64,000 nucleotides of DNA from Bosea sp. 685 (GTDB lineage Bacteria; Pseudomonadota; Alphaproteobacteria; Rhizobiales; Beijerinckiaceae), in assembly GCF_031884435.1 (NCBI RefSeq), contig NZ_CP134779.1, positions 4,650,001-4,714,000 of the forward strand. The letters run 5' to 3'. This document shows, in pieces, positions 54,709 to 56,862 of the stretch. A program made the translations under genes and the position numbers. The notes beneath the pieces were generated by a model. That model made no database searches. It had not been told where the DNA came from and was given only the letters and a program-made list of their open reading frames with translations. Every line of letters starts with the position of its first letter. The stretch's first letter is position 1.

Positions 54709-55908
54709 ATGGGTATTTTGCGTACCGGGACCACCAGCGCCGCCGTCCGGATTCAAGTTCCGCGTACCGGACGGCCCGCGCTGCAGTCACCGATCAAGGC
54801 TCCACGGCTCAAAGCGGCCGGCCTTCCTCTGGAACTACCGCTCGATCAGGTGCTCGTCGGCGACTGCGTCGCCGCGCTCGAGCGCCTGCCCCCGGCGAGC
54901 GTCGACCTCGTCTTCGCCGACCCGCCCTATAATCTCCAGCTCGGCGGTGATCTGCGCCGGCCCGACGACAGCCTCGTCGACGCCGTCGACGACGATTGGG
55001 ACAAATTCTCGTCCTTCGCCGATTACGACGCCTTCACCCGCGCCTGGCTTACGGCCTGCCGCCGCGTGCTGAAGCCTGACGGCGCGCTCTGGGTGATCGG
55101 CTCCTATCACAATATTTTCCGCGTCGGCTCGATCCTCCAGGATCTCGGCTTCTGGATGCTGAACGACATCGTCTGGCGCAAGGCCAATCCGATGCCGAAT
55201 TTCCGCGGCCGGCGCTTCACCAATGCGCATGAGACGCTGATCTGGGCGGCGCGCGGAGCATCATCGAAATACACCTTCCACTACGAGGCGCTCAAAGGCG
55301 GCAATGACGACCTGCAGATGCGCTCGGACTGGTATCTGCCGCTCTGCACCGGTGAGGAGCGCCTGAAGGACGAGGCGGGGGCGAAAGTCCACCCGACGCA
55401 GAAGCCCGAGGCCCTGCTCGCCCGCGTCATGCTCTCGGCCAGCAATCCCGGCGATGTGATCCTCGATCCCTTCTTCGGCACCGGCACAACCGGCGCCGTC
55501 GCCAAGGCGCTCGGCCGGCGCTTCATCGGGCTGGAGCGTGATCCGGTCTACGCCGCCGCCGCCCGCAAGCGCATCGCCGCCATCGAGCCGCTGCCGCCGG
55601 AAGCCTATTCGACCGCGCCCTCCAAGCGCAGCGAGCCGCGCGTGCCCTTCCTCAGCCTGGTCGAGGCCGGGCTGGTGAAGGCCGGCGAGAGCGTCACGGA
55701 CGAAAAGCGCCGCCACAAGGCAACGATCCGCGCCGACGGCACGCTGATACTAGGCCCGGCAGTCGGCTCGATCCACAAGGTCGGAGCGCTGGCCCAGGGA
55801 CTGCCGAGCTGCAATGGCTGGACCTTCTGGCATGTCGAGCGCCCGGCCGGGCTGATGCTGCTCGACGTCCTGCGCGGCGAGATCAGGGCGCAGATGGCGG
55901 CGGCTTGA
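54709..55908 (+). CDS. ccrM: CcrM GANTC-specific adenine DNA methyltransferase
   Basis: 399 residues. DPPY (71-74, in [16 protein letters not shown]) is the amino-N6-methylase motif, with [18 protein letters not shown] and [20 protein letters not shown] as the SAM site; the C-terminal region of about 85 residues ([20 protein letters not shown] to the end) is the DNA-binding RAMA-type extension found in CcrM. It methylates GANTC and couples methylation to the cell cycle. The distal 62 bases of this gene recur at 56801-56862. The first 40 residues are variable, so an internal start is possible. Confidence 0.97.
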
Positions 55909-55909
55909 G
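55848..55909 (+). repeat. Direct repeat, ccrM 3' end copy 1
   Basis: This 62-bp stretch with the ccrM stop is about 81 percent identical (12 mismatches) to 56801-56862. The two lie in the same orientation and bound an islet of about 890 bp. Confidence 0.85.
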
Positions 55910-55952
55910 CATTTTCGAGCGAAGTGGACGCCGGTTCGCGTAAAGAAAATGC
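55907..55952. repeat. GCATTTTC palindrome at the ccrM stop codon
   Basis: GCATTTTC and GAAAATGC ends flank GAAGTGGACGCCGGTTCGCG. It starts within the TGA of ccrM. A second, shorter one (GAGCATTTCC/GGAAATGCC) lies at 55970-56006. Confidence 0.8.
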
Positions 55953-56196
55953 GATAAAATATGAGGCTTGAGCATTTCCGCGATTCGGAAACGCGCGGAA
56001 ATGCCATAAGTCGCGAAGTCACAAACAGGCGAAGCCCGCTTGGAGGCACCTGCGTTCCATTGCGGCCATGCGCAGAACCGTGACGCCCGACGTTCCCCGG
56101 CTTTGGAATGCGAAGCGATAGCCTTCGATTTGAGAGACGATTCCATTCGCAGCGGCGGTATGGGGCCTCGTCAATCGTCCATCCTCCGACCCGACG

Positions 56197-56718
56197 CTAT
56201 TTTTCCGGCGGAGGGGGCGGAGGAGGACGCAGCTTTTCCGCCTCCATGGCGGCCCGTGCGACTTCCAGCAACTCGGGGAATGGCTCGGTAGCCTCCTTCG
56301 AGCATCCCGATGCGCTAATGGCTCTGGCGCTGAAGCCTCCCTTTCCATCGTCCCCGATCATAACGCTGGCATGGAATGTTTGACGCCCGAATGTTTCACG
56401 CCAGGGAGCATCAACTTCCTTGCCGAAAAGCTTGGGCGTTACAGAAGCCGCAATGCAATACTCCGTTACTGGAACTGTCGAAAATGCGGGCTTTTCGACG
56501 AGATAAGCGCTGTATTTCGCATCCTTTATCGCCGAGACAATCAACCAGAGAGGATATTTATTTACTCGGATGGCCATAGCCGCAACGGCCTTGCGGACGG
56601 CGTGGGTCGCGTGGCTTGGCAGAGGAGGCTTAGCAAACTGAGCCGCACGCTGTTCGGGCGTCACGCAGCCAGCCAATGAAATTCCCACAACAACAAGAGC
56701 AAGACATCGCAAAATCAT
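56197..56718 (-). CDS. Lipoprotein of unknown function in the islet
   Basis: 173 residues. Signal CLALVVVGISLAGC with lipobox L-A-G-C (Cys18). The mature part has YPLWLIVSAIKDAKYSAYLV, two more cysteines (EYCIAAS, ASGCSKE), and a Pro-rich end (LRPPPPPPPEK). GC content is clearly below neighbouring genes. I do not recognise a family. It lies between the two copies of the ccrM 3' end and appears to have been brought in with the islet. Confidence 0.7.
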   Translation of the reverse strand: MILRCLALVVVGISLAGCVTPEQRAAQFAKPPLPSHATHAVRKAVAAMAIRVNKYPLWLIVSAIKDAKYSAYLVEKPAFSTVPVTEYCIAASVTPKLFGKEVDAPWRETFGRQTFHASVMIGDDGKGGFSARAISASGCSKEATEPFPELLEVARAAMEAEKLRPPPPPPPEK

Positions 56719-56800
56719 CGTCCCCCAAACACCGAACTGTTCAGTTCGGACTAAGGATTAAAACGATTCGGAGAATGTTTGCTATTGCGCCAGAAGATTG

Positions 56801-56862
56801 CGGCCTGATGCTATTTGACACTTTGCGCGGCGAGATCACGACGCAGATGGTCGCGGCTTGAG
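56801..56862 (+). pseudogene. Duplicate ccrM 3' end (direct repeat copy 2)
   Basis: The frame encodes GLMLFDTLRGEITTQMVAA and stops at 56859-56861, against [19 protein letters not shown] at the ccrM end (15 of 19 identical). The rest of ccrM is absent upstream (an unrelated AT-richer sequence). Because mutY converges on it and overlaps by 26 bases, this copy looks like the original location of the ccrM tail. Confidence 0.8.

Follow-up and report, generated by a model that had tools for sequence, protein, structure and literature searches.

A lower-GC islet with a putative lipoprotein gene and a second, divergent ccrM 3' end at the variable ccrM/mutY junction of Bosea sp. 685

The convergent genes ccrM and mutY of Bosea sp. 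685 are separated by a small islet in the window, as we call the whole 64,000-nucleotide stretch analysed here (contig NZ_CP134779.1, positions 4,650,001 to 4,714,000), and the features of the junction are collected in Table 1. The last 62 nt of ccrM (tail 1) recur in the same direction beyond the islet (tail 2), with 50/62 positions identical and 12 mismatches (81%), exactly as a sequence-only reading of this DNA had stated. That reading had put about 890 bp between the tails; we measured 891 bp, with 55% GC against 67-68% in ccrM and mutY. The lower-GC lipoprotein gene that it placed there is present too (GC 0.559, compared with 0.675 for ccrM, 0.680 for mutY and 0.656 for the window). The repeat is not due to chance, since tail 2 with 11 further bases, used as a query against the whole genome, found tail 1 at E 8.6e-10, and the runner-up ungapped 62-mer for tail 1 inside the window reaches 37/62 identities. 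The ORF 56676-56861 closes with the tail 2 peptide ...GLMLFDTLRGEITTQMVAA and its stop. mutY ends 26 bp inside tail 2, where 56836-56861, 26 of the last 27 bp, encode the mutY C-terminus. No sigma-70-like promoter or terminator-like match was found in 55800-57000, and an Rfam scan over 55500-57200 gave no match.

Table 1. Features at the ccrM/mutY junction (positions in the window).
Feature	Coordinates	Strand	Remarks
ccrM, intact, N6_N4_Mtase + RAMA, 399 aa	54709..55908	+	PF01555 E 2.7e-62, PF18755 E 4e-17
Tail 1, native 3' end of ccrM	55848..55909	+	Identity 61/62 to G051, 60/62 to G063, 59/62 to G006
REP/BIME-type palindrome pair, begins within the ccrM stop codon	55907..56010 (end approximate)	.	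Genome-wide repeat family
Islet DNA without recognised gene, 186 bp	56011..56196	.	21-37-bp matches at most in the other 66 congeners
Putative small lipoprotein gene, 173 aa, near-orphan family	56197..56718	-	LAGC (presumed lipobox); shared Cys and EPFPE in remote relatives
Region upstream of the lipoprotein gene, ending abruptly against tail 2 near 56800/56801	56719..56800	.	ccrM similarity begins at 56801
Tail 2, divergent copy of the ccrM 3' end	56801..56862	+	12/62 mismatches; 26-bp mutY overlap as at empty sites
mutY, convergent to ccrM and native-like from 56863 onwards	56836..57942	-	Pfam HhH-GPD, NUDIX_4, EndIII_4Fe-2S

The two palindromes that the sequence-only reading counted among the contents of the islet are there, but they are not specific to it, the pair being one copy of a REP-type pair that occurs genome-wide. 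With 55903-56200 as the query, 40 of 212 candidates were scored; counting the query itself, at least 41 matches in the genome have E<=1e-4. The palindrome core has 97 genomic copies with at most one mismatch, again including itself; the sequences of 12 other copies of the pair were set out for comparison. Many palindromic copies, by which REP/BIME repeats are recognised, thus lie across the genome, and the palindromes were rejected as ends of an element because the pair is a member of this family. In the same genome, two Y1_Tnp genes of the RAYT type lie 3 kb from each other (G000:C2:4058244-4061623; G000 is the genome of the window) and are possibly related to the REP family.

Neither the 173-aa lipoprotein nor the ORF 56019-56348 has a match in Pfam or NCBIfam. 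The protein contains LAGC, which we take to be a lipobox, and it is probably exported. In a search of 5.8 billion proteins that was limited to shared short exact words, two matched at E<=0.01, namely itself and P0002, and six of 397 genomes of the family match at E<=1e-3, itself included. Proteins of its remote relatives in G392 and G097 align with it at common Cys and EPFPE positions; inspection by eye of the surroundings of the gene in G392 revealed no ccrM or mutY. A search for the lipoprotein in other genomes, as the sequence-only reading had advised, yielded just two weak matches in the other 66 congeners (E 4e-4 and 6e-4). Weak matches include G053 and G120, and that of G003 was rejected as a relative (32% over 84 residues, with an internal stop, at the ccrM/mutY ends). 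The islet core, 56008-56800, has nothing beyond 21-37-bp matches in the other 66 congeners and is found only here among the 67, the islet being carried by one genome, the window's own. PF00589 and PF01797 have no match in the islet, and in these and the Pfam scans a recognisable mobile-element gene is absent from it.

The junction was compared across 67 congeners including the window's genome, taken from genome collections with one genome per species: 66 match ccrM, 65 junctions were read and 57 have mutY in the fetched stretch, with G033 (no ccrM match) and G021 (truncated ccrM match) left out of the junction reading. An empty site exists in relatives. Sixteen of the 57 readable congeners have a ccrM/mutY overlap of exactly 26 bp, among them G051 and G063, whose ccrM is 98% identical to that of the window, and the next outgroups G003 and G014, so strains with ccrM directly against mutY, which the sequence-only reading had recommended looking for, were found. 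Tail 2 stands in the original place, as that reading had supposed, because its overlap with mutY is the same 26 bp as in the empty-site genomes. The relatives do not all carry one arrangement, the case in which the idea of an islet was to fail: empty sites exist, and the other 66 congeners lack the islet.

The other junctions among the 57 have a 4-bp overlap (n=8), further short types (n=11) or a cassette (n=22), with G048 (gap -185) counted as short and G055 (439) as a protease cassette, for which another stop-codon walk gives -23 and 838. The cassettes are of six kinds, one of them without assignment. A Peptidase_C70/PG_binding-type gene occupies the junction in 13 congeners (by DNA similarity, partial in G055; G062 was scanned), a RelE/HTH toxin-antitoxin-like pair in three (by DNA similarity; the G006 pair was scanned, with RelE slightly below the cut-off), a Cys-rich ORF without Pfam match in three (G031 was scanned), a metalloprotease in one, an insert without assigned content in one, and the lipoprotein islet in the window's genome. 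There is thus a turnover of cassettes at the ccrM/mutY junction, and its repeated occupation by unrelated small cassettes was not foreseen in the sequence-only reading. Even the near relative G006, within the same four-genome clade, has a toxin-antitoxin-like pair there, which shares no DNA similarity with the islet at E<=1e-4. In G006 (L003 / L071) this pair of a RelE-like toxin and an HTH antitoxin-like protein is located at the ccrM stop codon; DNA like it, with 70-76% identity, occurs at the same junction in G015 and G032.

On the ccrM gene tree, from which G043 is absent, the cassette states require 16 Fitch changes, compared with a mean of 20.5 and a minimum of 17 in 500 label shuffles. 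The cassettes are partly inherited, since the observed number lies below every one of the shuffles, yet they have been gained or lost many times. In 20 hand-picked relatives, gaps more than 300 bp above the minimum occur at ccrM/mutY in 7/20 and at the only other conserved convergent pair nearby in 0/20; two non-convergent intervals exceed the same bound in 17/20 and 11/19 relatives and are more variable than ccrM/mutY. The junction is variable, not uniquely hot. Elsewhere in the window, about 7 kb (44788-51771) lie between two conserved genes whose interval in 19 relatives has a median of 412 bp and a range of -48 to 10591, and two ORFs in this region were each matched in one of the 20 fetched relatives' stretches. 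An IS transposase (DDE_Tnp_1, DUF772) is located at 58891-59856, and the ORF 57957-58604 adjoining it was matched in only 3/20 fetched stretches.

The tail in use by ccrM is native: it is nearly identical to that of G051, G063 and G006 (Table 1), and the identity of ccrM to these three genomes, followed in 60-bp bins, shows no step. The mutY flank beyond tail 2 is native-like as well, its first 60 bp being 92-97% identical to the same genomes. Further inside mutY, at 57403-57462, the window's genome differs from G006 at 2/60 sites and from G051 and G063 at 11 each. This mosaic block may be read as a sign of homologous exchange; it is the one block that makes up the recombination signal in the flanking core genes, in a single-locus view.

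Tail 2 has another history. At fourfold sites the window's genome has diverged from its sisters by 0.11-0.12 in ccrM and by 0.15-0.17 in mutY (the G006-G063 mutY value was excluded for its mis-framed alignment). A duplication on the G000 branch was simulated with 200 draws per pendant; at least 12 differences arose in 0% of them at a neutral pendant length of 0.06 and in 0.5% at 0.09. When tail 2 was placed on a single-gene tree by 58 sites and hand-set rates (support 0.44 and 0.62 inside the four-genome clade), the G000 branch was 5.3 lnL below the best edge, with 95% points of 2.9 and 2.3, and 4.7 lnL below it in an earlier placement model; the best edge was G014. A recent duplicate of the native tail was rejected on the simulated divergence and the placement, and in these models tail 2 is too diverged to be one. 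The identity of 81% thus argues against a recent target duplication, as the sequence-only reading had proposed; the foreign copy that it deduced from the same figure is a weak best fit, with old decay as a rival.

According to the placement, the best, if weak, fit for tail 2 is a ccrM 3' end from another lineage. Tail 2 gives a mutY C-terminus, KPRPSAS and a stop, that is the same as in G014 and differs from those of G006, G051, G063 and G003. Tail 2 matches 30 of the 397 family genomes at E<=1e-4, all from the window's genus, and no donor was found among the 397, the best non-self match of 83% (G014) being hardly above that of tail 1 (81%); G014 has in common with tail 2 just 2 of the 12 differing positions. 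These 12 differences are spread 4/3/5 over codon positions 1/2/3 (P 0.03 against the coding pattern, with crude rates) and 8 of them run from GC to AT, a codon spread that in part resembles decay more than a coding allele. Both features speak for a history in which the four-genome clade acquired the islet on its stem, with duplication of the native tail; tail 2 would then have decayed as non-coding DNA, and the islet would have been lost later from G006 and from G051/G063 through allele exchange. A pendant of 0.19 from the stem gives at least 12 differences in 33.5% of 200 draws, and in the first placement model the stem was only 2.84 lnL worse than the best edge. In the second model it was 3.56 lnL worse, just past the 95% point of 3.27; separate losses would be required, one of them restoring the exact 26-bp overlap, and the G014-like mutY C-terminus encoded by tail 2 also speaks against such an old duplication, which we consider unlikely though by no means negligible. 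With moderate confidence, tail 2 is probably an imported ccrM end that has partly decayed.

The sequence-only reading offered two origins for the layout, an element that integrated at the ccrM 3' end and restored the gene with its own copy, or recombination with a divergent ccrM allele. If the islet were the remnant of a site-specific integrative element using the ccrM 3' end as attB, with the repeats as attL and attR, this would agree with a direct repeat that extends exactly to the ccrM stop codon, with a tail 2 that holds the original place, and with an empty attB in relatives (G051, G063 and 14 others at -26 bp). Such an element should have supplied the tail fused to ccrM, but this tail is native, agreeing at 61/62 positions with the empty-site sister G051. 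In a search limited to the PF00589 family, the nearest tyrosine integrase lies about 312 kb off and none is in the islet; the lipoprotein has no phage match and the islet DNA no plasmid match. A second-tail score was calculated over 113 ccrM-downstream stretches, i.e., those of 34 congeners, in which the gap exceeds 30 bp or mutY was not found, and those of 79 among 80 named loci, with at least two loci counted twice (G011/L089 and G026/L091). It reached 64 in the window's genome, 50 in the Rhodoplanes locus L107 and at most 36 in the others, with a control maximum of 31. The search for the repeat elsewhere, which the sequence-only reading had suggested, thus revealed no other strong tail copy bar L107, a tandem duplication. 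An integrated element is not supported, and we regard it as improbable. It is even less credible that the ccrM 3' end is the target of tiny non-autonomous elements with their own ccrM tail, of which the islet would be a decaying member. Recombination with a divergent allele is preferred, because the used tail is native, PF00589 is not near and the 113 stretches offer no second case of a tail copy apart from the tandem duplication; it fits better than the element, but its donor was not found.

The locus L107 (Rhodoplanes MAG), where the ccrM tail is duplicated together with downstream sequence (5105-7951, 65-80% alike) and the first gene downstream of the ccrM tail looks EF-hand-like by eye, was rejected as a second example of an islet-type tail copy. 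It does show that a ccrM tail can travel in a local tandem duplication with a neighbouring gene. Both tails of L107 precede related sequence, whereas the two tails of the window precede unrelated sequences, and the lipoprotein matches once in the genome, with no second copy or remnant seen beside mutY; the same origin for the islet is therefore hardly plausible.

Direct repeats of protein-gene 3' ends around inserted DNA are known from site-specific integration. In the accounts consulted in part, SGI1 integrates at the thdF 3' end with an 18-bp direct repeat and its own integrase (PMC2297512), and the e14 prophage in icd is flanked by a 163-bp direct repeat and supplies the icd end in use (PMC6379469). 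The islet resembles both in this layout. Unlike SGI1 as portrayed there, it has no integrase nearby in the PF00589 search, and unlike e14, the ccrM end in use is native and not element-supplied. No report of an integration site in ccrM was found in the literature, judged by titles from part of the matches.

We lean, with moderate confidence, towards the capture of a small accessory gene at a recombining ccrM/mutY junction; a piece of a divergent ccrM-mutY junction would have become joined to the islet. The islet would be a lineage-specific accessory-gene insertion at the convergent junction, and tail 2 the final 62 bp of a divergent ccrM, attached to the islet through recombination and not an integrase-made attachment site. 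In one route, an incoming linear fragment ending within the foreign ccrM tail may have recombined homologously in or near mutY, its other end being joined illegitimately to a previously captured islet at 56800/56801. In the other, a circle with the islet and the foreign tail could have crossed over once with the native tail, within the final 10 bp that the two tails share without a mismatch. The two routes are indistinguishable. We infer the foreign-lineage donor, the illegitimate end at 56800/56801 and the order of events; the donor and the steps of capture are unproven. Our confidence is kept moderate because the placement of a stem duplicate was so close to the best edge in the earlier model and because a deletion of the HFIR type is absent.

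Both HFIR and a circle with a single crossover appear as fates of incoming DNA in the portion of PMC3240628 used here, which adds that HFIR generally deletes a similar-sized resident stretch and is in E. coli perhaps too rare to matter. By that account the islet is like HFIR in that a foreign stretch of about 1 kb is homologous on one side and ends abruptly, at a non-homologous join, on the other. It differs in lacking the usual deletion, as no resident DNA is missing at the junction compared with the empty site, and a loss from an earlier islet would be invisible. Oliveira et al. 2017 (PMC5635113), in the part drawn on here, describe hotspots that lack an integrase and have recombination in the core genes on their flanks, these genes tending to act in recombination and repair. 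The ccrM/mutY junction is similar in the varied small gene sets that one pair of core genes encloses with no integrase seen, in the repair gene mutY as one flank, and in the sign of homologous exchange within mutY. In contrast to the hotspots as described there, the cassette of the window is bordered by a partial copy of the flanking gene, and exchange is inferred here at one locus across species and not genome-wide within species.

As a consequence of the insertion, ccrM is still intact, the mutY C-terminus is slightly altered and one small lipoprotein gene is gained. At this locus two core genes meet in a compact junction, and DNA exchange has left a scar that can be read: the native piece of ccrM is distinguishable from the non-native one. 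The islet looks like an ordinary scar of this sort at a place where related species often gain or lose small genes. If true, our interpretation would add a useful instance of cassettes that come and go without mobile-element machinery, and no new mechanism. In this genus the ends of ccrM and mutY repeatedly acquire small genes, i.e., toxin-antitoxin-like pairs, a papain-like protease, a metalloprotease, a Cys-rich ORF and a lipoprotein, and ccrM is left intact.
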